Shown here one piece after another: positions 18,020-32,380 of a stretch of 64,000 nt of DNA. How positions within the stretch are numbered: the first letter of the stretch is position 1; each line of letters opens with the position of its first letter. The translations under genes were made by a program, and so were the position numbers. The DNA comes from a bacterium (GTDB lineage: Bacteria; Armatimonadota; Zipacnadia; Zipacnadales; UBA11051): assembly GCA_030604405.1 (NCBI GenBank), contig JAUVVY010000008.1, forward strand, positions 1-64,000, read 5' to 3'. The notes beneath the pieces were generated by a model. The model made no database searches, was not told the DNA's origin, and saw only the letters and a program-made list of their open reading frames with translations.

Positions 18020-20749
18020 TTAAGGCCCGCAGCCGGCGATGATGAGGGTCAGATCTACCGGATAGCGGCCCGCGCGGGAGCTATACACGATCAGGCCGCC
18101 AGGCGTGCGCTCCCGCGGCACGGCAAGTGTAAGCTGCACGCGCCTGCGATCCGCCCCGGCTATCTCTTCTATCATGCCCGGGGGCACGCCAACACGCACC
18201 AGTTCCCCGTACCGGCCCCAGAGGCCATGTATGTGTGACAGCGCCCCGCGTGAGTCGGCGTACTGGTCGCCCAATCGCTGCGAATCAACGTGACATCCGT
18301 TCATATAGATTTGCAGTTCCGTTGGCCAGCCACCCGCTTCGGTCTGCCGGGCGTCCTGCATCTTGGCGGACAGTTCGGCGATGAGTGTAATACTGTCTGC
18401 TTCGGCAAGATCCATGCCTGCCGGCAGCTCAAATACGTAATCGAGGTGGCCGGCCTCGATGCCACCTAGCAGGTGGATCTCCCGGCCGACCAGTCCCCGC
18501 TCCAATTCGGCCTCGTGCCAGCCTGATGAATGTTCCTGTTCGCCGGCGAGTTTCCGCAGCACCACCGAGCCGTCAGCAAGCCTCTCAACCGCCGGCAGCC
18601 GACCACTGCAGAGCTCCAGATACTTAAAATCAGAGAACCTGCCGTTGACGCAGGCCTCCAGCCGCAACAGACACGGGTAATCAGGCAGCAGCTCATCGAA
18701 TACAAACGTGCCCCGGCTCAGCGCCAGATGCGCCTCAACGCCTCCCCGCATCCAATCCATTTTCCCTGTCGGGGCGGGGCTTATCTCCTGTCCCAGCGCG
18801 TCAACGCCGCTGACGGCTATCTGAATATCGGGCCATGTGAAGTCCGTGCAGCCCTGTCGGGCTACGAACACGGGAAGCCGGACGGTGCTGCCGGGTTCGA
18901 CCGTGTCCCCGGGCGGGCCCTCGAAAGCAAAATACGGATCCGCCTGCAGGTGCGCCGGATTGTAACCGAACTTCTTCGCCGAGCCGTCGTAGTTGTAGAT
19001 CCCGTTGCGCTCCCACTCGATGTCATGAAGCTCGGTATAGACATATCCGCACACTTCTACCTCCCGCCGCAGCAGATCGGTGAGGAACTTAAAGCACCAC
19101 GAGATGTCCTTGTCACCCATACGCGCCGAGACGCCCCCGTATTCCGAATTGAGCAGAGGCTGTTCGGTCTGGGTGCGGCGCGGTACGAAGTTGAAATCAG
19201 ACCCGGGGCGGGTCCTGTCTATCACCTCGGCGATGTGCTCAGCCGCCTTTTCATAATCATTGATATAGAAATGCCACGAGTTGATATCGGTGCGCACATG
19301 ATCATGGAGGCAGGCCGAGTTGTCCTCAATCAGCCGCGTGCCATCAAGCTCTTTGGCCAGCTCGTACATGCCCTCGACCCATTCCTGGCGCTCCGGGTCT
19401 TGCTTGTAGCCGTCGCCTCCGAGTCCCCACGTTTCATTGAACAGGCACCACGAGATGATAGCCGGGTGGTTGTAGTCTCGCGCGATCGCCTCCCGCAACT
19501 GCGCCTCATGGCGCCGGCAGGCAAGCTCCGAGTAGCCGTCATATCCAAAGCCTGGCATATCGCACTGCAGCATTATGCCCAGTCTGTCGGCCCAATACAG
19601 GTACCGCGGGTCCTCCAGCTTGATGTGCACGCGCAGCAGGTTGAAGCCGGCGTCTTTGGCCTGCTGCAGATGCTCGCGGATCGCATCATCAGACAGATAC
19701 GTATAAACACCCCACGGGTTGAATGACTGGTCCAGCGCGCCCTTGATATAGATCGGGCTTGCGTTGAGCGTGATGTAATTCGGCCCACCCTGGTACAACG
19801 GGCCGACCCCGACTTCCCTCATGCCGAAGTAGCTGTGCGCCGTGTCAACCGCCTCGCCGCCACACTCCAGTGCGACAATGACACCATATAGATGCGGATG
19901 CTCAGGCGTCCAGAGCATCACCTCTTCATCTAGCGCCACGCTGCCACCAAAGCCGCCCTGCCCATCGCCCTTCAGCACGGTTTCAGCTACCTGCTTACCT
20001 TCGGCGTCGCTGACGGTGACACTCACACTGCCATTCTCGCCCACATTCCGGCAAACGACTTCGGCCATGACGGCACCGTCTGCGGGCTTCGGCGTGAGGC
20101 GGATGTTCTCGATATACGTCTCCGGACGCGGTGCCAGCCATACCGGCTGCCAGATGCCCGAGGTCGTCGTGTACCAGTTGTGCTGCTTGCCCAGCGGCTT
20201 TCGCTGATCATCCTGCGGGTCGCACACGCGGCACGTCACGGTATTCTCCCCGTCGGTGAGATAGTCGATGATGTCGAACTCCACGGGTAGGTATCCGCTT
20301 TCACTTTCGCCGACGGCGTGGCCGTTCACCCAGAGCCTGACATGCCAATCCGCCGCACCGATGTGGAGAATAACCCGCCGGACGTTCCAAGCCTCAGGCA
20401 CCTCGAATGCGCGCTTGTACCAGCCGATGGTATGCCGCGCCGCTTCGCGGTAGTTATCTGTGTTGACCTCAGCCGGCTTCAGATAAGCATTGCGCGAGAA
20501 GTAGTTGTCACAGTCGGCTGCTGCTGCGGTGCCCCATGCTGCGTGCGATTCCCACGGAAACGGCACACGAATGGTTCGCTCGAGGGTCGCGTCAGGCTCA
20601 TACCAACCCTCAGCCTCGCCGACATCTTGCGGGTCGAATGAGAACTCCCACTGCCCGTTGAGGTCAATCCAGTCTTGCCCCTCAGTCATGCCGCGGTGAA
20701 AGTCCGGCCGCGGGTGGTACTGCTCATCTGCTTGCTTGCATGAAGACAT
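18020..20749 (-). CDS. Glycoside hydrolase family 2 protein
   Basis: 909 residues. The sugar-binding jelly-roll domain begins at WIDLNGQWEFSFDP (about 28-41) with RVPFPWESHAAWG and VNGHAVGESESGYLPVEFDI. An Ig-like domain follows, then the GH2 TIM barrel (GFNLLRVHIKLEDPRYLYWAD about 350). The acid/base Glu is visible in SWCLFNETWG (about 434) and the nucleophile Glu in LLNSEYGG (about 525). A C-terminal beta domain continues to the end. No signal peptide is seen from the ATG at 20749, which has GGAG six bases upstream; a longer frame to 20932 is rejected. Activity could be beta-galactosidase, glucuronidase or mannosidase; the specificity is not readable. It is divergent from the SAMD9-like gene. 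Confidence 0.9.
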   Translation of the reverse strand: MSSCKQADEQYHPRPDFHRGMTEGQDWIDLNGQWEFSFDPQDVGEAEGWYEPDATLERTIRVPFPWESHAAWGTAAAADCDNYFSRNAYLKPAEVNTDNYREAARHTIGWYKRAFEVPEAWNVRRVILHIGAADWHVRLWVNGHAVGESESGYLPVEFDIIDYLTDGENTVTCRVCDPQDDQRKPLGKQHNWYTTTSGIWQPVWLAPRPETYIENIRLTPKPADGAVMAEVVCRNVGENGSVSVTVSDAEGKQVAETVLKGDGQGGFGGSVALDEEVMLWTPEHPHLYGVIVALECGGEAVDTAHSYFGMREVGVGPLYQGGPNYITLNASPIYIKGALDQSFNPWGVYTYLSDDAIREHLQQAKDAGFNLLRVHIKLEDPRYLYWADRLGIMLQCDMPGFGYDGYSELACRRHEAQLREAIARDYNHPAIISWCLFNETWGLGGDGYKQDPERQEWVEGMYELAKELDGTRLIEDNSACLHDHVRTDINSWHFYINDYEKAAEHIAEVIDRTRPGSDFNFVPRRTQTEQPLLNSEYGGVSARMGDKDISWCFKFLTDLLRREVEVCGYVYTELHDIEWERNGIYNYDGSAKKFGYNPAHLQADPYFAFEGPPGDTVEPGSTVRLPVFVARQGCTDFTWPDIQIAVSGVDALGQEISPAPTGKMDWMRGGVEAHLALSRGTFVFDELLPDYPCLLRLEACVNGRFSDFKYLELCSGRLPAVERLADGSVVLRKLAGEQEHSSGWHEAELERGLVGREIHLLGGIEAGHLDYVFELPAGMDLAEADSITLIAELSAKMQDARQTEAGGWPTELQIYMNGCHVDSQRLGDQYADSRGALSHIHGLWGRYGELVRVGVPPGMIEEIAGADRRRVQLTLAVPRERTPGGLIVYSSRAGRYPVDLTLIIAGCGP

Positions 20750-21021
20750 AGAAAACTCCGCAACAGTGTGATGCGATACGAATACCCGGGCTGCCCATGT
20801 TATTTGCTTGCCGGCACTGGACATTCCTGCCGTCCTGAGTGGAATAGATTGCACAATGAAGGAGCCCGCGGCAAATAGATGCCATGCAGGAGAAACGCGA
20901 TGCAGCGTAGAAGTACATAAAAAACGTGGCAATACAATCTACTCTTATTTACGGAACGCGGAGAGAGGGCCCCCGGCCCAAAACATAGCGCGTGTTAAGC
21001 CTCGTCGAGGAGTGAGCGAAA

Positions 21022-24000
21022 TTGATCGATCGTGAGAAGTTCCTGTCGCTGGTGCCTCAGTCCGAAGGGCCGACCCTAGATTTCAAGGCGACCTCTTACA
21101 ACCTGCACGAGGATGGGGGGAAAGTCAGCTTCGTCAAGGACGTACTTTGCATGGCGAATACGCCGAGAGAAGGTACTTCATTTATCGTGTTAGGGGTGAA
21201 GAAGTACCCTGATGGGACTTACGAACTCATTGGTGTCGAGAGCCATCCTGATGACGCGGATCTTCAATCGCAACTCTCCGCACGTGTCAGGCCCGTACCC
21301 GAGTTCGTTTACCACAGCGTTCAGCATGAAGGAAAGTCGTATGGGATCATCGAGATCTCGCCCGTCCGACAGGGTCCCTGTATGCCAACGAAAGACTTCG
21401 GCAAGATGCTGAGGACCGGCATCGTCTATTTCCGGCGAGGCTCCCAGAATGACGAGGCCACTGCGGAAGACCTACGTAGGATCGTACGATGGATTGAAGA
21501 GGGTACTGTCTCCTCTATGGCCCGCCTGGACGACATACCGGAGTGGGAGAGATTTCTCGCCGCGGTTCACGGTTTCGAGACCAAGCGCAGATACGTCCTC
21601 ATCTCGGCGCCGCTTAGGAACGGCAAGATGGCGGACGTTTCCGTTCTTGGCCGGGTTCCCTGGTGCGCAGTTTTTGATTTTGACCCGGGCAGCGAGTCCG
21701 AGGGATTGTTGAGTAGAGCCAGAACCGAGATGGAGCGAACGAGGCGATGTCAGATCGTCGTTGCTCGAGAAAACCCCACACTGTATCCTGATCGGGTGAC
21801 ACACTGGTTCTTTGCCTGCGGATTGGAGGGAAGGGAAGAGACACTGACAACAAAGGAATGGCGGGAATGGAAGACGCAGTTCGGAAGTGAACTGGACCAA
21901 CAGTTCGGCAGAATTGCAGGCGCCGTCGCGCCTGCCCCAGTAACTGGTTTGGTGCTTTGGTATGACGAAATGACCGTACAGTATTTGCGGTCCTGTATTG
22001 AGGCAGCGCTCAGCGCGTTTGGCTCGTCGCTAGAGCTCGTGATGCTGACGGATGAGCCGGCGATGCTGCGTGGACTGAAGGCAGACTATGACGCTCAGCT
22101 TTTTGAAATACCTCTGCACCATCTATGCAGTGGTCTAGAATTAGAGCTTGCCACGCCCTCTGTCTCAGATCTGGATGAATACTTACTGCCCTCAAGCTCT
22201 GGCGCGCCGATCTCCCTCGACTTGCAAGAGCGCCAATGGCTGAGTGAAGAGCTTCAAATAGTGGACCTTAGTAGCGGGTACGAAGACAGTGAGGACGGCG
22301 ACAGCGGCGGCGACTTCCTTCGAGGGGCAGAGGTTTCGTGGCATGCGCTAAGCAATAAATACGACGTTGATCGTGATAAGACGCAAAGAATACGGCGACG
22401 CGTAGAAGCTGAGTTGCAGAATAAGCAGATAGTCCGGGTCAATCTGTATCACGCTCCGGGCGCTGGGGCGACTACCGTCGCACGGCGTGTTGTGTGGGAT
22501 CTTCATCAAACGTATCCTTGTGCGCTACTGAGCCGCTCCGAGCCTGAGGAAACGGCCGAGCGTCTGTATCGCTTGTCCTCCCTCACTGGGCAGGCTGTGT
22601 TGCTTCTGATAGATGGCGCTCAAGTCGCTGAAAGAGAGGTGGACGAACTTTACGACCATGTTCGGAGTCGACACATCCCGGTCGTCTTTCTTCAAACCCT
22701 AAGAAGGTTCAAAAGACAGCAGGAGGGCAATCGGGTCTTTTACCTCCCCGCCGAACTCTCAGGCGAGGAGTGCTATCGTTTCGTTGAAGCGTTTTCACGC
22801 GAAGAACCGAGCAAGAGGGCACGTCTTGAAGCACTAATGTCGGCGGAGGAGCCGAGGATGCGTACTGCCTTCTATTTCGGACTCGAAACCTTCGGCCGAG
22901 AGTTTCGGGGACTAGAAAATTATGTCAACGCGCGGGTTGCGGAACTGACTCCTGAGCAGAGGCGCGTAATGATGTACCTTGCCTTGGCACATCACTATGC
23001 TCAGCAACCAACGCCAGCACAGGCATTTGCAGACCTGTTGGGTATGCCAAAGAGCCGTACAGTAGAGCTGCAAGAGGCCCTGACCCAAGGGGCCTTGGAA
23101 CTTCTCGCACAAGTGCAGGATGGTGTTTGGCGAACGGCGCATGAGCTGCTGGCGTTAGAAATCCTAAAGCAAGTGTTGCTACCGGGTCCGGGAGACAGGC
23201 GCCAGTGGCGGCAAGGGCTATCTGCTTGCGCTATAAGGTTCGCTGAGTTTTGCCGTGGCACCGAACCAGTGCCAAGCGAGGAAATGTTGGAGATTGCAAG
23301 ACGTACTTTCATATATCGCGACAACGCTGAACTTTTGGGAACTGAGCGCTCTGCACAGAGTTCTTTTTCCCAGCTCATCGAAGAGATACCGGTGCGCGAG
23401 GGGAGACTTGAAGTCCTTCGCAAACTGGTTCGCTTGTACCCAACAGAAGCACACATCGGGGCCCACTTGGGCCGCTTCTATGCAATTGAAATGAAGGACT
23501 ATGACGAGGCGATCGTATGTATCGATCAGGCTCTTCAAGTGCAAGAGCATGACCATCTGCTGCATCATATGAAAGGAATGGCAATGCGAAGTCAGATGTA
23601 TGAGCTTCTGCGGCAGAAAGGTGATTTGGACCAGGCGGTGCGCCTGGCGAAATCAGCCAGCCATTCATTTGAGACCGCTCGCGAATTGAGCGCAGATGAC
23701 GAACACGCATACATAAGCGAAATCCAAATGCGCATCGCGTTGCTCGACTACGCAGGCGCTGCGCACGATGGAGATGTCAACAAGTATATTGCGTCACCTA
23801 ACGCTGATCCCTACATCGTGGAGAGCTTTGACAAGGCGGAGGAACTACTCGCGTTGGTGAGTAGAAACCGCGAAGGACAAGGTCCTAGTCGATATGAGCA
23901 GGACTCTCGGGCGAAGTTAGATACTCTCTACGGGGAGTACTATAGGGCACTGGGGGTGTGGGACAGCTTATTGGCGCGGAGAGATGCCTATCACCCGCCT

Positions 24001-24678
24001 GTTAGAAGGCAAATTGTCTGGACGTACCTTGCACGAAGAGGCAGGTCATGGGATGCCTTACCCGAAAAGGAGATTGACCGGATAGTAGAGCTCCTGGAAG
24101 CTAACCTCAACGAGGAACCTTACGACGACAGGAATGTTCGTATGTGGGTGCAGGCGGTTCGACGTTCCAAGAGGGCGCCGAGTATTGACGCGATCATAGA
24201 ACGCGTTGCCTACTGGAAGAGCAATTCGGAAACACTGGACGCAGCGTACTATTTGTATGTATGTCATGCACTCAAGGCTCTGCAAGGGTCCAGTTTAGCG
24301 CGAGAAGAGGCACGACGGTACATTGAAGAGAGTCGCGACATGGCCCGACTTCGCCGTTCTCGAACAAAGAGCTTAGAGTGGCTCGGCAAAGGTTCCGGAA
24401 TCCAGCGTCTTGTGCATCATTCGGAGCTGGGCGAGTGGGACAGGGAAAAAAATTTCTGGGAGCGCACAGGATATCTCGAGCGCGTGCGTGGACGCATAGC
24501 TGGAATCAAGGGCCCGCAGGCCGGGCAGATCGAAGTAGAAGGTGGACTTATTGCCTTCTTCGTACCTGCACACGGGGGCTATGCTAGAGGGCGATCCGAA
24601 AACAAGCTTGTTGACTTCTATTTAGGTTTCAGCTACGACGGCCTACGGGCATGGGAAGTAGCTGATGGACAAGACTAA
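21022..24678 (+). CDS. SAMD9-like AlbA_2/STAND-type NTPase protein (putative immunity protein)
   Basis: 1218 residues. Residues 1-165 form a Schlafen/AlbA_2 domain: PTLDFKATS, FVKDVLCMANTPREGTSFIV, and FRRGSQNDEAT near 150. Residues about 170-400 match the SIR2-like middle region of the SAMD9 family (WCAVFDFDPGS, THWFFACGLEG). A P-loop at about 476-485 reads APGAGATTVARRVVWDL with no Walker A lysine, as in the GG-x-TT loop of human SAMD9; a Walker-B-like VLLLIDGA is near 527. Helical TPR-type repeats (about 790-1110) and a C-terminal OB-like segment (RGRIAGIKGPQAGQIEVEGG, about 1158 on) complete the SAMD9 order minus the SAM domain. Human SAMD9 proteins restrict viruses and AlbA_2 domains bind nucleic acid; a phage-defence role is inference. 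TTG start with GAGGAG nine bases upstream. Codon use looks less G+C-rich than in its neighbours. Confidence 0.8.
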   Translation: MIDREKFLSLVPQSEGPTLDFKATSYNLHEDGGKVSFVKDVLCMANTPREGTSFIVLGVKKYPDGTYELIGVESHPDDADLQSQLSARVRPVPEFVYHSVQHEGKSYGIIEISPVRQGPCMPTKDFGKMLRTGIVYFRRGSQNDEATAEDLRRIVRWIEEGTVSSMARLDDIPEWERFLAAVHGFETKRRYVLISAPLRNGKMADVSVLGRVPWCAVFDFDPGSESEGLLSRARTEMERTRRCQIVVARENPTLYPDRVTHWFFACGLEGREETLTTKEWREWKTQFGSELDQQFGRIAGAVAPAPVTGLVLWYDEMTVQYLRSCIEAALSAFGSSLELVMLTDEPAMLRGLKADYDAQLFEIPLHHLCSGLELELATPSVSDLDEYLLPSSSGAPISLDLQERQWLSEELQIVDLSSGYEDSEDGDSGGDFLRGAEVSWHALSNKYDVDRDKTQRIRRRVEAELQNKQIVRVNLYHAPGAGATTVARRVVWDLHQTYPCALLSRSEPEETAERLYRLSSLTGQAVLLLIDGAQVAEREVDELYDHVRSRHIPVVFLQTLRRFKRQQEGNRVFYLPAELSGEECYRFVEAFSREEPSKRARLEALMSAEEPRMRTAFYFGLETFGREFRGLENYVNARVAELTPEQRRVMMYLALAHHYAQQPTPAQAFADLLGMPKSRTVELQEALTQGALELLAQVQDGVWRTAHELLALEILKQVLLPGPGDRRQWRQGLSACAIRFAEFCRGTEPVPSEEMLEIARRTFIYRDNAELLGTERSAQSSFSQLIEEIPVREGRLEVLRKLVRLYPTEAHIGAHLGRFYAIEMKDYDEAIVCIDQALQVQEHDHLLHHMKGMAMRSQMYELLRQKGDLDQAVRLAKSASHSFETARELSADDEHAYISEIQMRIALLDYAGAAHDGDVNKYIASPNADPYIVESFDKAEELLALVSRNREGQGPSRYEQDSRAKLDTLYGEYYRALGVWDSLLARRDAYHPPVRRQIVWTYLARRGRSWDALPEKEIDRIVELLEANLNEEPYDDRNVRMWVQAVRRSKRAPSIDAIIERVAYWKSNSETLDAAYYLYVCHALKALQGSSLAREEARRYIEESRDMARLRRSRTKSLEWLGKGSGIQRLVHHSELGEWDREKNFWERTGYLERVRGRIAGIKGPQAGQIEVEGGLIAFFVPAHGGYARGRSENKLVDFYLGFSYDGLRAWEVADGQD

Positions 24679-24826
24679 GGTTGGCGTGCGCGGGGTATTC
24701 GAGCAGTTACAGGGGCAGCGCCTAGATTGGTCGGACCTTGTGGCACGCGCCACCACAATTTTTTCCTTACTTGTAGCTCTGGCAGGAACTATTTTGCAGG
24801 CGGCGAAGCTAGTGTATAATCCGTAA
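24665..24826 (+). CDS. 53-residue single-TM microprotein overlapping the SAMD9-like gene
   Basis: ATG at 24665 lies inside the last codons of the SAMD9-like gene (14-nt overlap, other frame). It opens MDKTKVGVRGVFEQ..., with a basic/amphipathic N-terminal half (about 1-28) and one hydrophobic helix (TTIFSLLVALAGTILQAAK, about 30-49), ending VYNP. The overlap implies translational coupling. No clear own SD is needed for re-initiation; GAAGTAGCTG lies just upstream. Small single-TM partners are known in several abortive-infection systems as effectors or anchors, so it may be the membrane effector or tether for the large protein. It is not recognised as a family; chance ORF of 53 codons is possible but unlikely given the TM pattern and the overlap. 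Confidence 0.6.
   Translation: MDKTKVGVRGVFEQLQGQRLDWSDLVARATTIFSLLVALAGTILQAAKLVYNP
24794..24820 (+). promoter_or_regulatory. Promoter with perfect TATAAT before the wHTH-KaiC pair
   Basis: TATAAT at 24815-24820, with TTGCAG at 24794-24799 (15-bp spacer) or TTTGCA one base left (16 bp). It sits in the 3' end of the microprotein gene and would give a leader of about 60 nt before the ATG at 24890. Confidence 0.5.
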
Positions 24827-24889: not shown

Positions 24890-25288
24890 ATGGACGCACG
24901 GATAAAGGATTTCATCCGCGATCACGCCAGGAACCTGATCGGTCTGGATGTGGCCCTGTTCTTCCAGACCAATCCACAGACCTTCGACACGCCCGAGGGA
25001 CTGGCCCGGCGAACTCACCGCGACGTGGCTGAGGTCAGGCAGGCACTGGACCGGCTGGCCGCCGGCAACATACTGCAGGTATTCAGCCGCGGTGAGGGGC
25101 GCTATCAGTGCTATGCCCTGGCCAAGACCGCCGAGGCGTGGGATTTGCTGTGCCTGCTCAGCGAGGCGTACATGGATGATCTGGAGGCGCGCAAGGAGAT
25201 AGTCAGGCTGCTGATGCAGACCCGCACTGCCGAAAGGAAAGCCGAAGAGCACGCCAATAACGCCGACACTCAGAGGATCGGGCAATGA
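24890..25288 (+). CDS. Winged-helix protein coupled to the KaiC fusion gene
   Basis: 132 residues. The pattern FDTPEGLARRTHRDVAEVRQ then ALDRLAAGNILQVFSRGEGR (about 32-70) is a typical winged helix: short helix, recognition helix, then a beta-wing with YQCYALAKTAEAW. The first 30 residues (DFIRDHARNLIGLDVALFFQ) and the charged tail (TRTAERKAEEHANNADTQRI) may mediate dimerisation or partner contact. GGAAGG lies about seven bases before ATG 24890. Its TGA overlaps the next ATG (ATGA, 25285-25288), so it is produced together with the KaiC/solute-binding fusion. It could be a transcription regulator under ATPase control; the target is unknown. Confidence 0.75.
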   Translation: MDARIKDFIRDHARNLIGLDVALFFQTNPQTFDTPEGLARRTHRDVAEVRQALDRLAAGNILQVFSRGEGRYQCYALAKTAEAWDLLCLLSEAYMDDLEARKEIVRLLMQTRTAERKAEEHANNADTQRIGQ

Positions 25289-27888
25289 GCGACTTAGTCA
25301 GCACGGGGATTGAGGGACTCGACGTACTACTTGGCGGCGGCCTGCGGGCGGGCGCTTGTGCGGTTGTGGAGGGCGTCCCGGGCACGGGCAAGACCACTAT
25401 CGGCCTGCAGTTCGTTCACGACGGCTGCATCAACGGTGAGGCGGGGGTTGTTGTCACTTTCGAGCAACTCCCAGAGCAGATTTACCTCGACGCCCAGAAC
25501 TTGGGCTGGGACCTGCGCGCCCTGGAAGAGCAGGACCTGCTCCGGGTCATCTGTACCTCTCCGGAAGTCTTCCTAGACCAGCTTAGCGACGCCGACGGTA
25601 TGATAGACGGCCTGATACGCGAGATGGACGCAAAGCGCATGCTGGTGGACAGCGTCTCGCACCTGATGCAACTGGCAAGCACCCCGCAGGAGCTGCGATC
25701 GGTGGTTTATGGCATGGTCAACGGCCTCAAGCGCGCGCGGCTGACCTGCATGGTCACAAAGGAAGTGGATGAGACGGGGGTGCGCGGGGCCGCCTTTGAG
25801 GAATACTTGGTGGACACCGTAATCAGCCTGAGCTTTGAGATGGGTGCCGATCTTTACCGGCGGCGTTACTTGGAAGTGCTTAAATCGCGCGGCCAGGACC
25901 ACGTTCACGGCAAGCACACCTTGAAACTCGGTGGTGCCGGCGCTCAGGTCTATCCGAGGCGCGCCGATCGCCCCCGCATGAAAGACCTGCCTACAGAGCG
26001 CATCAGTACAGGTGTGGTCGGCCTCGATGACATGATGACCTCCGGGATCCAGCCCGGTCATACCGTGCTGGTTGCCGGCAGCGCCGGTGTCGGCAAGACG
26101 ACGCTGGGCCTGTCATTCGTCAATGCAGGGGCTGCTGGTGGCGAACGGGCGGTCTATGTCTCATTTGAGGAAGCTCCCGAGGCGCTGTTGCAGTTGGCCG
26201 GCAACTTCGGCCTGCAGCTTTCCGAAATGCAGCAGGCCGGCGACCTCAGCTTCATACACGTGCCGCCCGTACATCTCCGCACCGACGAATTCGTCGCCCA
26301 GCTTGAGGCCGAGATCGAAAAACTCGGCGCCCGCCGTGTAGTAGTTGACAGCATCACCGATCTGGCTATGGCCGGCCAGGCCAGCCAGCGGCTGTGCGAA
26401 ACTGTCTATATCATCAACGCCATGTTCAAACAGCGCGGCGTCACGGCAATCCTCATTACCGAGGTCCCTGAGCTCTTCGGCCAGACCTACGTGACCACCG
26501 AGCATGTCTCCATCATCGTTGATGGCATCATCTTGATGAAGTATCTGGAGGAAAGCGAGATCCAGCGCGCCATCTCCGTTCTGAAGATGCGCGGCTGTAA
26601 CCACGACAAGGACATCCGCCGCTTCACCATCCAGGCCGACGGCATCCGCGTCGAGAGCCGCTTTGAGGGCGCTGAGGGCGTCATGGCCGGCAGCGCACGA
26701 CCCGTACCGGTGGCTCTGTCAGTGCGCAGTTTTACCGAAACTGACGAGCAGCACAACCAGGAGCTGATGACGCGCTTCTCCCAGGTTTATCCCCGCATCT
26801 CGCCCGTCAGCATCAGCCTCCCCTACAATCCCGACGAGGCCCGCACTACCGTTGAGGCGGCGCTGCGGGCCGACACCGGCGAGCTGTCGGTCGCCCCCCT
26901 GTGCCTCTACTGGATGCCCGAAATACTTGAGATGAACCGCCTGCTGCCGTTGGACGATCTGCTGTCTGGCGCTGAATTGGAGCAGCATATCCCGGAGCTG
27001 CTGGCCGCCGGGACCCTCAACCGCATCTGCGCCATCCCCGCGCTTGCCACTTGCGGAGTGCTGTTGTACCGCAAGGACCTGCTCGAGGAATTCGGCTTTG
27101 ACAACCCGCCCCAGAGCTGGGCTGAACTGATACATCAGGCGCACACCATCGTCGAGGGCAAACCGGACGAGCATCTCATCGGTTACCAGTTCCCGTCATA
27201 TATGTATGAGGGTCTCACTACCAGCTTCCTGCAAAATCTCTGGAGCAATGGTGCCCATGTCTTTGACGGTGAAGATGTCTCGCTGGAAGATGAGCCGACG
27301 CTGGCAGTTCTGACCTACATGCACGACCTGATATATAAGGAGCGGCTGGTGCCCAGCAACGTAGTGACTGCCGCCGGCGGGCTGGAGCCGCAAAACGAAT
27401 TCATCGCGGGCCGCACGGTGTTTTTGACTCTGCTGCCCAGCGTCAGCCAGGCTGCGCAGAGTCTCGACTCGCCGATCAGGGGTAAAGTCGGCATCACCTC
27501 CCCGCCGATGGGGCCACATGGCAAGGCGAGTGTGACTTTCCTGAGCGGCTGGCTCTACGGCATCCCGGTGGGCGCCAGAGCTCCGCAGGCCGCCCGCGAG
27601 TTCATCAGGTTCATGACCAGTCCGCAGGTGCAAAAGGAGCGCGCTCTGCGTGGCGGCCCGCTCCCCACCATTGAGCGGATCTACACCGACCCCGAGGTGC
27701 TGGCCTTCAACCCCGACTATCCCAAGATCCGTCAGATGCTGCGCACTGCCAAGTGGCGCAGCGAGATACCGCAGTATCCGAAGGTCAGCCGGATCATACA
27801 AAAGCATCTCCACGCCATGCTCAGGGGTGAAGTCCAGCCCCCCGACTGCCTCACCCGGCTCAAGGCCGACATCAAGGAGCTCGTCTGA
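25285..27888 (+). CDS. Tandem KaiC-type ATPase fused to ABC solute-binding-protein domain
   Basis: 867 residues without signal peptide or TM segment. First RecA/KaiC domain: STGIEGLDVLLGGGL, Walker A EGVPGTGKTTIGLQF (about 30-44), VVVTFEQLP catalytic position (E-Q). Second domain about 235-460: ISTGVVGLDDMM, Walker A AGSAGVGKTTLGLSF (about 264-278), VYVSFEEAPE (E-E). EHVSIIVDGIILMKYLE and KMRGCNHDKDIRRF align with the KaiC CII end, the residue matching KaiC S431 being Ser and T432 Ile. From about 470 a type 1 extracellular solute-binding fold follows: FTETDEQHNQELMTRFSQVY, ALATCGVLLYRKDLLEEFG, SWAELIHQA, LLPSVSQAA, SGWLYGIPVGAR, FIRFMTSPQVQ. The solute-binding part is normally exported; here it must be cytoplasmic. 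It is coupled to a winged-helix gene; no KaiA/KaiB seen. Confidence 0.9.
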   Translation: MSDLVSTGIEGLDVLLGGGLRAGACAVVEGVPGTGKTTIGLQFVHDGCINGEAGVVVTFEQLPEQIYLDAQNLGWDLRALEEQDLLRVICTSPEVFLDQLSDADGMIDGLIREMDAKRMLVDSVSHLMQLASTPQELRSVVYGMVNGLKRARLTCMVTKEVDETGVRGAAFEEYLVDTVISLSFEMGADLYRRRYLEVLKSRGQDHVHGKHTLKLGGAGAQVYPRRADRPRMKDLPTERISTGVVGLDDMMTSGIQPGHTVLVAGSAGVGKTTLGLSFVNAGAAGGERAVYVSFEEAPEALLQLAGNFGLQLSEMQQAGDLSFIHVPPVHLRTDEFVAQLEAEIEKLGARRVVVDSITDLAMAGQASQRLCETVYIINAMFKQRGVTAILITEVPELFGQTYVTTEHVSIIVDGIILMKYLEESEIQRAISVLKMRGCNHDKDIRRFTIQADGIRVESRFEGAEGVMAGSARPVPVALSVRSFTETDEQHNQELMTRFSQVYPRISPVSISLPYNPDEARTTVEAALRADTGELSVAPLCLYWMPEILEMNRLLPLDDLLSGAELEQHIPELLAAGTLNRICAIPALATCGVLLYRKDLLEEFGFDNPPQSWAELIHQAHTIVEGKPDEHLIGYQFPSYMYEGLTTSFLQNLWSNGAHVFDGEDVSLEDEPTLAVLTYMHDLIYKERLVPSNVVTAAGGLEPQNEFIAGRTVFLTLLPSVSQAAQSLDSPIRGKVGITSPPMGPHGKASVTFLSGWLYGIPVGARAPQAAREFIRFMTSPQVQKERALRGGPLPTIERIYTDPEVLAFNPDYPKIRQMLRTAKWRSEIPQYPKVSRIIQKHLHAMLRGEVQPPDCLTRLKADIKELV

Positions 27889-27992
27889 AAAAGAGCACGG
27901 AGCGTTTGTTGTCATAGAAACCAGGTGAGTGTCCCGACTTTCATCGTTTCAAGAAAGGCTCCATTCCGTTCTTTGCTACTTGATAGGCCTGG

Positions 27993-28021
27993 TTGACAGC
28001 CGCGCAAAGTGGTGCTACCAT
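27993..28021 (+). promoter_or_regulatory. Sigma70-type promoter of prs
   Basis: TTGACA at 27993-27998 (perfect), 17-bp spacer, TACCAT at 28016-28021 (4 of 6). Start of transcription would be about 28028, giving a leader of about 70 nt to the ATG at 28100. Confidence 0.65.
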
Positions 28022-28099
28022 ACCCGCGAGCCTCTGTGCATGAGCGAATTACACAGCAGGCTTATTTGTTTCCACACCCCGGATCAGGAGAATTGGCTA

Positions 28100-29086
28100 A
28101 TGCCTGGGCAAAAGCTATACGACATCCCTGATGACCTCAATGAGGATCTGAAGATATTCTGCGGCTGCTCGCACCCGCAACTGGCCGGCGATATCTGCGA
28201 GTGTCTCGGCATACCCCTGGGCGAGACCTACATAGACCGTTTCGCCAATGACAACATCTACGTGCAAATCAGCGAGAACGTGCGCGAGAAGGATGTCTTC
28301 GTGCTGCAGACCGCCTCGGCTCCGGTCTCGGAGCATCTGATGGAACTGTTCCTGATGGTGGATGCTCTGAAGCACGCATCGGCTCAGCGTGTGACGGTGG
28401 TCATGCCTTACTACGCCTACGTGCGCTCGGACAAGAAGGACGCGCCACGCATCTCGGTCGCCGCGCGGCTAATTGCGGACCTGCTGGAGGCCTCCGGGGC
28501 CGACCGGCTGCTGACCATGAACCTGCACTCGGAGCAGATCCAGGGCTTTTTCCAGGTGCCGGCCGATCACCTGACCGCTCTGCCGCTTCTGTGCGACTAC
28601 TTCTCCGAGAAGCTGGACCTGACGAATTTCGTCATCGTCTCGCCCGACGCCGGCAGCGCCAAACGTGCCGGAAGATACGCCGAGCGCCTCGACCTGCCGC
28701 TGGCCATCGGCGACAAGCGGCGCGACAGCCAGCTCAAGGATGATGCATTCATCAGCCGTATCGTGGGTGAGGTGGAGGGTAAGAACATCATCATCTTCGA
28801 CGACGAAATCGCCACCGGCGCTTCGATGCTGGTGTTGGTTGAGTGTCTCAGGGAAAAGTACGATGTGGGCAAGATCTACGCCGGGGCCGCTCACGGGGTG
28901 CTGGTCGGGTCGGCCATCGAGCGGTTCCAGGAAAGCGACATCGAAGAGGTCGTTATAACCGACAGCTTGCCACTGCCGGAGGAAAAGCAGATTGACAAGA
29001 TAAGGCAGGTCTCGGTGGCCCCGCTTCTGGCCTCTGCCATCTACGCCATCCACACCGGCGCATCAGTAAGCGCGCTGTTCCGGTGA
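28100..29086 (+). CDS. prs: Ribose-phosphate pyrophosphokinase (PRPP synthetase)
   Basis: Makes PRPP from ribose 5-phosphate and ATP, the precursor for purines, pyrimidines, histidine and NAD. 328 residues, normal length. Signatures: FANDNIYVQISENVREKDVF (about 52-71), YYAYVRSDKKDAPRISVAA, MNLHSEQIQGFF (metal site, usual DLH replaced by NLH), VIVSPDAGSAKRA, and the PRPP-binding loop IIIFDDEIATGASML (about 233-247, compare VDDxIDTGGT; one residue of the loop, the second Asp, is Ala). ATG 28100 with AGGAG nine bases upstream is preferred to an in-frame extension from 27929. Its last 60 codons plus downstream 75 bp are repeated at 30600-30856. Confidence 0.95.
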   Translation: MPGQKLYDIPDDLNEDLKIFCGCSHPQLAGDICECLGIPLGETYIDRFANDNIYVQISENVREKDVFVLQTASAPVSEHLMELFLMVDALKHASAQRVTVVMPYYAYVRSDKKDAPRISVAARLIADLLEASGADRLLTMNLHSEQIQGFFQVPADHLTALPLLCDYFSEKLDLTNFVIVSPDAGSAKRAGRYAERLDLPLAIGDKRRDSQLKDDAFISRIVGEVEGKNIIIFDDEIATGASMLVLVECLREKYDVGKIYAGAAHGVLVGSAIERFQESDIEEVVITDSLPLPEEKQIDKIRQVSVAPLLASAIYAIHTGASVSALFR

Positions 29087-29259: not shown

Positions 29260-30381
29260 TCATCCCCCGTCAGGCGCGACGCTGTGGAGCAAGTACGTCT
29301 CCTGACCATCCACGGTGCGCAACTCGTAGTGAAAATCATCGCCGGAAAACGGGTCGGCCGGCAGTTCGGCGATGTAATCCGGAACAAGGTTTGCCAGCGT
29401 GCGCGGATAGTTGCTCTCCCTGATATTGTATGCCTCCAAGGCGCACCGGATGCTGAGGCCGGCCATTTTCGCCTCGGACTGGTCCCGTTTTTCGGCGTAC
29501 CTGCTATACATTGGGGCCGCGATGCTGGACATAGGCGATAGCGACCTCGGGATTTTGCCGCGCAGAAATGCCGGTTGCCTCGCCCACTTGTCCACCTTCA
29601 CTAGATATATTTGCTGAGCACGCCAGAAAATGTTCGTGATTATGTTCTGCGGGAGAAGCTTCGTGCGCCGGCCGGTGCTGGTGGCTGCCATCTGATGCGC
29701 CATAGCCTTCATGCCCCGGTCGCTATCAAGAAGTATTGTGTGGGCCAGTGACTGTGGGTTCTTGCGGTTCTGCTCGTTCCAGGCGACAAATTCGACAAGC
29801 TTCTCCGGGGTTGGAGTGGCGCTGTTGAGCACATCACTGAGGGCCTTGGCACCGATGGCGCATATCGCTATGCCCGCGAGGTCGTGGAGAATGGAAGCAT
29901 TGATCCCCATATTCCGGCCGAGACGTAGGCAGTCACGGATGGAATCCATGGCCTCATCCGCCTTGCCCTGAGCGGCCAGCGCCTTGGCCTCCAGGCTCAA
30001 CCCTCTGGCCAGTGCACGCATTCCTGCCAGTTGCGCATTGGCGGCGCTCAGATCAGGGCCCGGATCCGGGACGCGGCAATCGTTGTACAGGCCCTCGCGC
30101 AAAGTCTGCAGCGCCGCTTCATAGGCGGCCGCGGCCTCGACATAATCCGGCTGCTGGCCGCTCCGCTCAGCCTGACGGGCGGCCTCGAAACTGCGTTCGG
30201 CGTGGCTCTCCTCCGCTATCTGTCCTGCTCTGACCATATAGCTCCAGGCGTTATCCTCTGGCTCGGGGTACTGCGGCAAGTCAATACTCACCGTGGTGGT
30301 CGTCGCTACGTATCCATAGATGCCGACAGCGAGCAAGACGGCGCCGATAAGAGCAACCACCAACCATCTGCGTGAATACAT
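29260..30381 (-). CDS. Exported hypothetical protein with prepilin-type tail, copy A (frameshifted 3' end)
   Basis: 373 residues. One N-terminal membrane helix (LVVALIGAVLLAVGIYGYVA) suggests export or anchoring. A helical middle (residues about 40-200, with NEQNRK) is followed by the tail YPRTLANLVPDYIAELPADP with FSGDDFHYELR, the pattern often seen at the end of type II secretion pseudopilin-like proteins of large-genome diderms. A run of five C's at 29264-29268 shifts the frame relative to copy B: removing one base would extend it by GDDDMGLVVWSPDDRDGN and a further ten residues or so to a stop at 29166. So it is a one-base-frameshifted 3' end, or a homopolymer sequencing error. ATG 30381 with GGAGG. 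The downstream paralogue at 30862 (copy B) is intact. Confidence 0.75.
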   Translation of the reverse strand: MYSRRWLVVALIGAVLLAVGIYGYVATTTTVSIDLPQYPEPEDNAWSYMVRAGQIAEESHAERSFEAARQAERSGQQPDYVEAAAAYEAALQTLREGLYNDCRVPDPGPDLSAANAQLAGMRALARGLSLEAKALAAQGKADEAMDSIRDCLRLGRNMGINASILHDLAGIAICAIGAKALSDVLNSATPTPEKLVEFVAWNEQNRKNPQSLAHTILLDSDRGMKAMAHQMAATSTGRRTKLLPQNIITNIFWRAQQIYLVKVDKWARQPAFLRGKIPRSLSPMSSIAAPMYSRYAEKRDQSEAKMAGLSIRCALEAYNIRESNYPRTLANLVPDYIAELPADPFSGDDFHYELRTVDGQETYLLHSVAPDGG

Positions 30382-30480: not shown

Positions 30481-30599
30481 TAGTGTGCCCCATGGCGCCG
30501 GTTTTGTCTAACTTTTCGACAATATTCGCACTGACAGACCGATACCAGGTCGCCGGTGTACGCAGGAAACGGTTCCCTGGCCCGCGCGGTCGAAGAATA
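30481..30599. repeat. Duplicated mttB-upstream sequence (also at 32069-32191)
   Basis: The segment with TTTTGTCTAAC, ACAATATTCGC, CCGATACC and CCCGCGCGGTCGAAGAATAG occurs at 30481-30599 and again at 32069-32191, and the end GTCGAAGAATA recurs at about 35310 before the intact mttB. At 30599 it joins directly to a copy of the prs 3' end, at 32191 it leads into a truncated mttB copy. This marks the rearrangement breakpoints. Confidence 0.75.
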
Positions 30600-30782
30600 G
30601 TCGGGTCGGCCATTGAGCGGTTCCAGGAAAGCGACATCGAAGAGGTCGTCATAACCGACAGGCTGCCACTGCCGGAGGAAAAGCAGATTGACAAGATAAA
30701 GCAGGTCTCGGTGGCCCCGCTTCTGGCCTCTGCCATCTACGCCATCCACACCGGCGCATCAGTAAGCGCGCTGTTTCGCTGA
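30600..30782 (+). pseudogene. Duplicated 3' end of prs
   Basis: 61 codons nearly identical to the end of prs: GSAIERFQESDIEEVVITDR, LPLPEEKQIDKIKQVSVAPL, IHTGASVSALFR. They join without a gap to the mttB-upstream fragment at 30599, so they lack the catalytic parts. The 75 bp that follow also match those after the real prs. Not expected to be functional; it may be read as the tail of a spurious ORF from 30483. Confidence 0.9.
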
Positions 30783-30861: not shown

Positions 30862-32025
30862 CTACTCGCGTCTGCCAGTGAAGATGTTCCGTACCGGGCC
30901 GATCAGCATATCCCCGTCGCGGTCATCAGGACTCCACACCACCAGGCCCATGTCATCGTCACCGTCAGGGCCGACGCTGTAGAGCAGATACCCACCCATC
31001 CCGTCCAGGGAGCCCAGTATATAGCGGAAATCACGGCCCGACCACGCATCAAGCGGCAACTCGGCGATGTAGTCTGGAACAAGCTTTGCCAGCGTGCGCG
31101 GATAGTTGCTCTCCCTGATATTGTATGCCTCCAAGGCGCAGCGGATGCTGCTGCCGGCCAGGACAGCTTCATTCATCGTCGCTTTTTCGGCCAGCCTCTG
31201 GTAAGTAGCTGCCGTGGGTAGGTTCTCGGCTCCGGCCAGCTCCGCTTCGTCGGGCACCGGACCGCGCAGGTGTGCGGGCTGCCGGGCCCACTCGATAACA
31301 CGCACGACGTATTGCTCAAATACGTCGGCCAGCTCTGGAGCAGCGGTCCGCCGTCTTGCGACAATCCAGTGAGCATCAATGGCGATGGCATCGGCAGTTG
31401 ACTGCCACTGCCGGCGGTTCTGCTCGTTCCACGCCGCGAACTCGATCAGCTTCTCCGGCGCGGGCATGGCAGTATTAAGCGCATCACTCAGGGCTTGGGT
31501 ACCGATGGCCCCTATCGCGATGCCAATCAGCTCGTGAATCAGTGCCCCATTCGTGCTGATGTTGCGGCCGAGGCGCAAACAGTCGCGAATCGACTCTATG
31601 GCCCTATCGGGGTTGCCCTGCTGTGCATGGCCCCTGGCCTCCCAGCTCAAAGCTCTGGCCAGGTTGCGTATGCCCATAAGTTCAGGAAAATCTGTCTCAT
31701 GAAACTCCAAGCCCAGCACGCGGCAGTCGTTATACAACCCTTCGCGCAGGACCTTTAGCGCCGGCTCATAGCTGGCTGCGGCTTTGGCGTAATCAGGCTC
31801 GACACCGTCCCGCTGAGCTTCCATGATGACGCTGTGGCCACTGTCGGCGTCGGTCTCTTTGGCCACCTGTGCAGCTCTAAGCATATAGCTCCAGGCGTTG
31901 TCAGGAGGCTCTGGGTACTGCGGCAGCTCGAAAGCCGGCTCGGCTGCGTCAACACAAATAGAATAGGCGATACAAACTACGCAGGCCGCGATGAGTGCAA
32001 CCAGCAACGACCTAGGGAGATACAT
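30862..32025 (-). CDS. Exported hypothetical protein with prepilin-type tail, copy B
   Basis: 387 residues, paralogue of the protein at 29260-30381. A signal or anchor helix (LLVALIAACVVCIAYSICV) leads to DAAEPAFELPQYPEPPDNAW, close to copy A (LPQYPEPEDNAWSYM). The body shares LREGLYNDCRV, SIRDCLRLGRN and WNEQNR. The tail is intact, YPRTLAKLVPDYIAELPLDA with SGRDFRYILGSLDGMGGYL, LYSVGPDGDDDMGLVVWSPD, ending GPVRNIFTGRRE. The DDDMG acidic end is typical of Ca-binding pseudopilin-like tails. ATG 32025 with GGAGG six bases upstream. It belongs to the tandem duplicated tract; function unknown. Confidence 0.8.
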   Translation of the reverse strand: MYLPRSLLVALIAACVVCIAYSICVDAAEPAFELPQYPEPPDNAWSYMLRAAQVAKETDADSGHSVIMEAQRDGVEPDYAKAAASYEPALKVLREGLYNDCRVLGLEFHETDFPELMGIRNLARALSWEARGHAQQGNPDRAIESIRDCLRLGRNISTNGALIHELIGIAIGAIGTQALSDALNTAMPAPEKLIEFAAWNEQNRRQWQSTADAIAIDAHWIVARRRTAAPELADVFEQYVVRVIEWARQPAHLRGPVPDEAELAGAENLPTAATYQRLAEKATMNEAVLAGSSIRCALEAYNIRESNYPRTLAKLVPDYIAELPLDAWSGRDFRYILGSLDGMGGYLLYSVGPDGDDDMGLVVWSPDDRDGDMLIGPVRNIFTGRRE

Positions 32026-32224
32026 CTTTGCACCTCCGCTCAAGTAGGTGGGTAAGTGCTCAGTGATATAGTGTGTCGTGCATCGCCTTTTTTGTCTAAA
32101 CTTTTCCACAATATTCGCCCTGACAAGCCGATACCTGTTCACCGCTGTATGCAGGAAAAGGCTCCCTGGCCCGCGCGGTCGAAGAATAGTCGGGGCACAA
32201 TCCGCAGCGCTTTGAGGTGAAACA

Positions 32225-32380
32225 ATGAATTGGCTTGCGGAAAGCGAAGTTGAGCAGATAGACGAGACCAGCCTGGATATTCTGGCCGAAACCAGCATTA
32301 TGCACCTGTTGTGTCGAGTGCCGCGCAACGGCGTCGGGCTAGAAAGCCCGACCTACGCGTTGATGAATAATGGGGGTTAG
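32225..32380 (+). pseudogene. Truncated copy of the mttB 5' end
   Basis: The ATG at 32225 starts MNWLAESEVEQIDETSLDIL and AETSIM, matching the first 26 residues of the intact mttB protein (MDWLTDSEVEQINEASLDVL, AETGIM) with about eight differences. After that it runs into unrelated sequence including a GTCGGGCTAGAAAGCCCGAC hairpin repeat (about 32334) and stops at 32380. The SD-containing stretch GAGGTGAAACA is kept. Confidence 0.85.

Follow-up and report, generated by a model that had tools for sequence, protein, structure and literature searches.

What gates a KaiC-type ATPase that is not part of a clock, and what would a solute-binding domain do if it were attached to such an ATPase inside the cell? 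KaiC-like proteins are widespread outside cyanobacteria and their input signals are mostly obscure. Both questions are raised by a two-gene unit at positions 24,890 to 27,888 of a 64,000-nucleotide stretch of DNA (the window: assembly GCA_030604405.1, contig JAUVVY010000008.1, positions 1 to 64,000 of the forward strand) from a bacterium of the class Zipacnadia, phylum Armatimonadota. The first gene encodes a winged helix-turn-helix (wHTH) protein and the second a fusion of two KaiC domains, CI and CII, with a family 1 solute-binding protein (SBP) domain. Our reading, to which we give a probability of roughly 0.45, is that the unit is a cytoplasmic carbohydrate sensor, in which the SBP domain gates a KaiC ATPase ring that signals via the wHTH protein, probably to carbohydrate genes. 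It is built on the domain content, the intact ATP-site residues, the conserved gene pair, the selection acting on the SBP domain and the linkage to a GH2 glycoside hydrolase gene.

A preliminary description, made from the DNA letters alone, had proposed a single 867-codon frame holding two KaiC domains with intact Walker A loops, followed by an entire family 1 SBP fold. Pfam supports both parts, as it places KaiC (PF06745) twice at the N-terminus (316 bits, E 1.7e-94) and, further on, SBP_bac_8 (residues 513-805, 74.2 bits, cut-off 27) and SBP_bac_1 (residues 541-784, 73.8 bits, cut-off 26), with no match to SBP_bac_5 in the fusion protein. The N-terminal half matches solved KaiC with an E-value of 2e-75, the top Foldseek matches of the full-length model are KaiC, with 30-33% identity to solved KaiC chains, and the 4.37 Mb genome contains no other strong KaiC domain. 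When residues 466-867 are compared with PDB using phmmer, they match MalE3 (6dtq, E 2.2e-50, covering positions 30-400 of the 402-aa query) and a trehalose/maltose-binding protein (1eu8, E 6e-47), which extends over nearly the entire domain; its start, first put at about residue 470, is better set at about 475. The domain lies C-terminal to KaiC and lacks the export signal and extracytoplasmic location that characterize the SBP family. Since the highest 19-residue Kyte-Doolittle mean in the protein is 1.42, no membrane segment is predicted, in agreement with the original placement of the binding domain, devoid of signal peptide and transmembrane stretch, in the cytoplasm.

The proposed check, a search for the same fusion and the same neighbour in other genomes, gave a clear outcome. 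Among 46 Zipacnadia genomes, 24 have a protein match at E <= 1e-120, and 23 carry the KaiC-SBP fusion, which is split by contig ends in two of them; the remaining match, in genome G013, has KaiC and no SBP domain. In each of the 23 genomes with the fusion, the gene immediately upstream of it encodes the wHTH protein, so that the pairing is obligate, and the ATGA overlap noted at the outset would couple the translation of the two genes.

In the mechanism that we favour, the two KaiC domains would form an ATP-dependent ring, as expected from homology, and the SBP domain, attached behind the C-terminal tail of CII at the position of the KaiC A-loop, would bind an imported sugar or oligosaccharide. 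Its movement from open to closed would act, via the A-loop position, on the nucleotide state or the phosphorylation of CII. The wHTH protein, translated from the same message, would be the partner relaying the state of the fusion protein, most likely by binding DNA at a shared divergent promoter, where it would tune the expression of its operon and of the neighbouring carbohydrate gene, which is typically a GH2 hydrolase. Indeed, a GH2 orthologue is found divergent from the wHTH gene, at a distance of about 80-340 bp, in 12 relatives, and including the window a divergent GH2 gene occurs at 13 of the 15 fused loci of the families f1 and f5 (the best PDB match of the GH2 protein is beta-D-galactofuranosidase 2, 9j6n, E 2.4e-63); the genes downstream of the fusion are far less conserved. 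Elsewhere the divergent gene is heparinase II/III-like (genome G041) or, in fusion-less relatives that keep the wHTH gene, commonly an FGGY sugar kinase, one of which scored 438 bits against L-fuculokinase, close to the cut-off of 471 yet below it. The divergent promoter is thus shared with a carbohydrate gene time and again, and none of these genes fixes the ligand.

A number of observations weigh against this reading. The ligand, the gating of the ATPase, the binding to a partner and the binding to DNA are all predictions from sequence. The AlphaFold model of the full-length fusion is of moderate quality (predicted local distance difference test, pLDDT, 72; predicted template modelling score, pTM, 0.47) and the interface between the SBP domain and CII is not resolved in it. 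The GH2 adjacency is found at none of the eight loci of families f2, f3, f6 and f7, and in f1 and f5 it may have been inherited from one event. A search of the sequence ahead of the wHTH gene at 37 loci yielded no operator palindrome common to them, and this gene is kept in 13 genomes that lack the fusion, which indicates that part of its role does not depend on KaiC-SBP. Finally, the wHTH family is acidic (mean isoelectric point 5.4, mean charge of the recognition helix -1.1), which makes a transcriptional output uncertain.

This last property is central to the alternative that survives best, according to which KaiC-SBP senses a cytoplasmic sugar as above and the wHTH protein is a protein-interaction or dimerisation module that links KaiC to signalling proteins and not to DNA. 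Along with the acidity of both the protein and its recognition helix, this view is favoured by the finding that elsewhere in Armatimonadota the same wHTH family forms the N-terminal domain of cytosolic PAS/HisKA/HATPase kinases and of one GAF-PAS-cyclase, and by the G041 operon, which runs on into response-regulator and CheA-like genes. However, AlphaFold predicts for the wHTH protein, with confidence (pLDDT 91.6), a winged MarR-like fold, the arginines R41 and R44 are conserved, and local regulators are typically encoded, as this protein is, at a promoter shared divergently with carbohydrate genes. Foldseek retrieves mostly MarR-type regulators (best 2nyx and 5yi0, E about 1e-3), and the Pfam MarR_2 score, 13.0 of 27 bits, stays under the cut-off of the MarR/wHTH family. 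Taken together, we regard the adaptor role as doubtful, albeit less so than the alternatives considered below.

The wider occurrence of the wHTH family bears on its relation to the ATPase. In a profile search of the phylum it also occurs alone, and wHTH genes pair with double KaiC genes that lack the SBP domain at loci L082, L103, L104, L105 and L106. These pairs, together with the fusions to histidine kinases, indicate that wHTH and KaiC are an older signalling pair to which the SBP domain was added later; from this we infer that the wHTH protein is probably a physical partner of KaiC-SBP. The SBP-less pairs, as well as a double KaiC with a C-terminal cupin (L078, 4020-5879, minus strand), fit a hub that gains sensor domains. 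The cupin protein is a second candidate fusion of KaiC to a small-molecule sensor. As loci L107-L115 and L120-L122 show, the wHTH family is an apparently unnamed Armatimonadota domain, often N-terminal in cytosolic histidine kinases and found once each in a GAF-PAS-adenylate/guanylate cyclase, with BON domains and with a long DUF7530 protein. Also, at the G041 locus (L077, 8603-17266) the KaiC-SBP gene precedes genes of response-regulator, sensor-like and CheA-like (Hpt-HATPase-CheW) type as well as another double KaiC, which amounts to a chemosensory-type operon around KaiC.

A sensor requires that the SBP domain still recognizes a ligand, and a second alternative denies this: small-molecule binding would have been lost and the domain would act as a scaffold of the KaiC ring or give it a surface on which proteins or glycans dock. 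In the alignment, some polar positions of the nearest sugar-binding structures are indeed occupied by other residues, for instance Cys540 in place of an Asp of 1eu8 and 6dtq, and the domain is dispensable in one genus, as G013 lacks it and its sister G028 carries an SBP on a long branch. Nevertheless, Cys540, Tyr542, Trp543, Tyr641, Glu642, Trp653 and Asn655 are invariant across families, and Trp756 and Arg825 are so in every homologue whose sequence reaches that far. The constraint is moreover similar to that on the ATPase half: the ratios of nonsynonymous to synonymous substitution (dN/dS) for CI, CII and SBP are 0.10, 0.29 and 0.22 between the window and its 93% identical sister, and 0.18, 0.28 and 0.23 against a 68% relative, and the commonest residue makes up, on average, 0.69-0.71 of an alignment column, equally in the three domains. 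The SBP half is therefore under purifying selection like the KaiC half, and a ligand-blind domain appears unlikely.

As to the ATPase itself, the conservation of active-site residues was scored over 19 homologues. There is no variation in either Walker A loop (with K36/T37 and K271/T272), in the glutamates E60 of CI and E296 of CII or in the K/R pairs at 200/202 and 434/436, whereas the second catalytic glutamate of CI (KaiC E78) is a glutamine in most of them. With its ATP sites intact, the fusion protein is likely an active ATPase. Concerning phosphorylation, the early remark that CII keeps the residue of KaiC S431 and has Ile at T432 holds for the whole set: S409, aligned with S431, is invariant in 19/19 and the T432 equivalent is Ile or Val in 19/19, which makes the canonical two-site phosphorylation impossible and leaves single-site serine phosphorylation at S409 as a possible, sequence-based prediction. 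The fusion protein thus has in common with clock KaiC the tandem RecA domains, the Walker A loops and the finger residues, and does not have its adjacent S431 and T432 phosphosites; in addition, KaiB (PF07689) has no match in the genome of the window (G000), which is 96.9% complete, and the clock equivalog models score below their cut-offs (TIGR02655, 247.9 vs 546.25; NF006799, 329.5 vs 408 bits). The phosphosite, the absence of KaiB and the family cut-offs rule out a clock function. They also render very improbable a KaiC-type autophosphorylation timer in which a sugar, in place of KaiA and KaiB, would set the period or phase, an idea for which the retained tandem KaiC, S431 equivalent and catalytic residues would speak.

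That an assembly artefact or a chance frame joined separate KaiC and SBP genes, the error that could have undone the preliminary description, has practically no likelihood and is ruled out, because the fusion recurs in half of the 46 Zipacnadia genomes, with full-length proteins at 46-93% identity in independent metagenome-assembled genomes (MAGs) and an identical junction in several families and different sequencing projects, and no point in its support was found.

Concerning the history of the fusion, none was found outside Zipacnadia among 291 Armatimonadota genomes, where the other classes have double KaiC only in unfused form (about 35-42% identity). When 84,980 species genomes were scanned with search patterns that are specific to this fusion family and whose reach does not extend to independent fusions in other lineages, 18 loci came up, every one under a title naming Candidatus Zipacnadia, WS1 or Armatimonadetes/Armatimonadota. 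Trees built separately from the KaiC and SBP halves agree on the families f1, f2, f5 and f6 as groups; these are quick trees in which several deep branches are weakly supported, and the deep order is not claimed. The matching clades are consistent with one ancestral fusion, followed by vertical inheritance and one later loss of the SBP domain. The placement of G013 beside G028 is likewise consistent with relaxed constraint on the SBP in this genus and its subsequent loss. The G013 locus (L017, 7005-8609, minus strand) displays this natural loss: the double KaiC stops at the A-loop and the wHTH gene is retained. The paper that described Zipacnadia from marine sediments reports carbohydrate-active enzymes (CAZymes) in many of its MAGs and does not mention KaiC (PMC10290634).

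Table. Position of the wHTH and KaiC-SBP genes, their domains and neighbouring features in the window.
Feature	Coordinates	Strand	Basis
wHTH gene, 132 aa, first of the pair, MarR-like fold, acidic	24890..25288	+	ORF (open reading frame), AlphaFold, Foldseek
KaiC-KaiC-SBP fusion gene, 867 aa, ATG start	25285..27888	+	ORF, Pfam, homologues
ATGA overlap of wHTH stop and KaiC start	25285..25288	+	ORFs; likewise in sister locus L037
CI KaiC domain; Walker A GVPGTGKTT, E60 conserved, Q61 at KaiC E78 position, K200/R202 fingers	25297..25959	+	
CII KaiC domain; Walker A GSAGVGKTT, FEE motif, S409 (= S431) invariant, I410 (= T432)	26002..26658	+	
Family 1 SBP domain, residues ~475-867, without signal peptide	26707..27885	+	Pfam, PDB matches, alignments, dN/dS 0.22-0.23
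Promoter- or leader-like element CAGGAA-N13-GGCGAA upstream of wHTH gene	24783..24807	+	
GH2 glycoside hydrolase, divergent partner, true start codon uncertain	18020..20932	-	Pfam GH2 N, middle, TIM-barrel
Schlafen/AlbA_2 + nSTAND5 + TPR gene, 1218 aa, between GH2 and wHTH	21022..24678	+	Pfam

As for the genes that flank the unit in the window, the AlbA part of the Schlafen/nSTAND gene matches the PADLOC candidate PDC-S50, and in the 93% identical sister locus (L037) the GH2 gene lies directly beside the wHTH gene, from which this gene looks inserted in the window genome; being missing there, it is ruled out as a functional partner. The PRPP synthetase gene downstream (27929-29086, plus strand) was rejected as a member of the unit, as it is common to the sister genome only. 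A partial copy of its 3' end is found some 1.7 kb further on (30483-30782, plus strand), and two related open reading frames (29260-30381 and 30862-32328, both minus strand) lie one beside each copy, which looks like a local duplication.

The short element ahead of the wHTH gene deserves separate consideration. Of 37 loci, 19 have the pattern AGGA-N14/15-CGAA ahead of the wHTH gene, as against a mean of 0.6 and a maximum of 3 after shuffling, and in nearly all of these 19, including L085, L088, L098, L100 and L101, the element (roughly CAGGAAT-N11/13-GGCGAA) lies 58-106 bp before the gene. It is also enriched genome-wide, with 23 sites as compared to 2 for the reversed control, and about half of 20 inspected sites precede same-strand genes. 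This enrichment indicates that it is not specific to the wHTH operon, and it was not accepted as an operator of the wHTH protein; it may be an alternative-sigma promoter or a leader element of the Zipacnadia lineage.

If the carbohydrate-sensor reading holds, the likely input is written into the fusion protein, whose binding domain comes from a family with solved, assayable sugar-binding members; having the input domain within the same protein means that the gating of KaiC ATPases outside clocks could be tested directly on a single purified protein. The fusion would also add a case of ABC-type binding domains recruited to the cytoplasm as sensors, and the unit is a candidate regulator of carbohydrate use in this uncultured class.

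Among known systems, archaeal KaiC-like ATPases were reportedly proposed as signal-transduction hubs by Makarova, Galperin and Koonin in 2017. In the part of the literature on them that was available, fusions confined to narrow lineages, among them KaiC-REC and KaiC with HalOD1, tie a KaiC-family ATPase, by fusion or operon, to sensor or output domains, and that part contains no mention of an SBP fusion (PMC5847659). The present unit resembles these hubs in that link, and differs in being bacterial, in carrying a whole family 1 SBP and in its obligate wHTH neighbour. With a PF06745 score above the Pfam cut-off and linked sensor and output domains, it belongs by its sequence to the KaiC-like signalling ATPases, and is not a clock KaiC, an exported SBP or an SgrR-type regulator. 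It shares with the cyanobacterial clock protein the tandem CI/CII arrangement, and departs from it, apart from the replaced T432, missing KaiB and sub-cut-off scores, in the SBP domain that follows the A-loop position. MalE3 and 1eu8 match the C-terminal domain over its full length; unlike them, the C-terminal domain has no signal peptide, is joined to KaiC and has some of the aligned polar residues changed. SgrR and DsvR (PMC13060122, PMC4021124) are likewise cytoplasmic regulators that pair a helix-turn-helix with an SBP domain and act in sugar physiology; in the SgrR/DsvR type an N-terminal HTH and a C-terminal SBP_bac_5 are reported in one polypeptide (PMC13060122), whereas here the domain is of the SBP_bac_1/8 type, the wHTH is a separate polypeptide and an ATPase is interposed. 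A literature search, with a coverage that did not include the main survey of KaiC-like architectures, found no published description of a KaiC-SBP fusion, in line with the initial claim that no such system had been described. The closest analogy in working is MalT (PMC4381067), a STAND ATPase that is switched by its inducer, assembles and drives carbohydrate genes; the architectures are unrelated, as MalT consists of a STAND NOD, an arm and a separate inducer-binding sensor domain in place of KaiC and SBP. We tentatively put forward an undescribed signalling class, in which a KaiC ring would be gated by fused cytoplasmic ABC-type domains upon sugar binding, with a wHTH output on carbohydrate-degradation genes, as the ATPase-ring counterpart of MalT in Zipacnadia.

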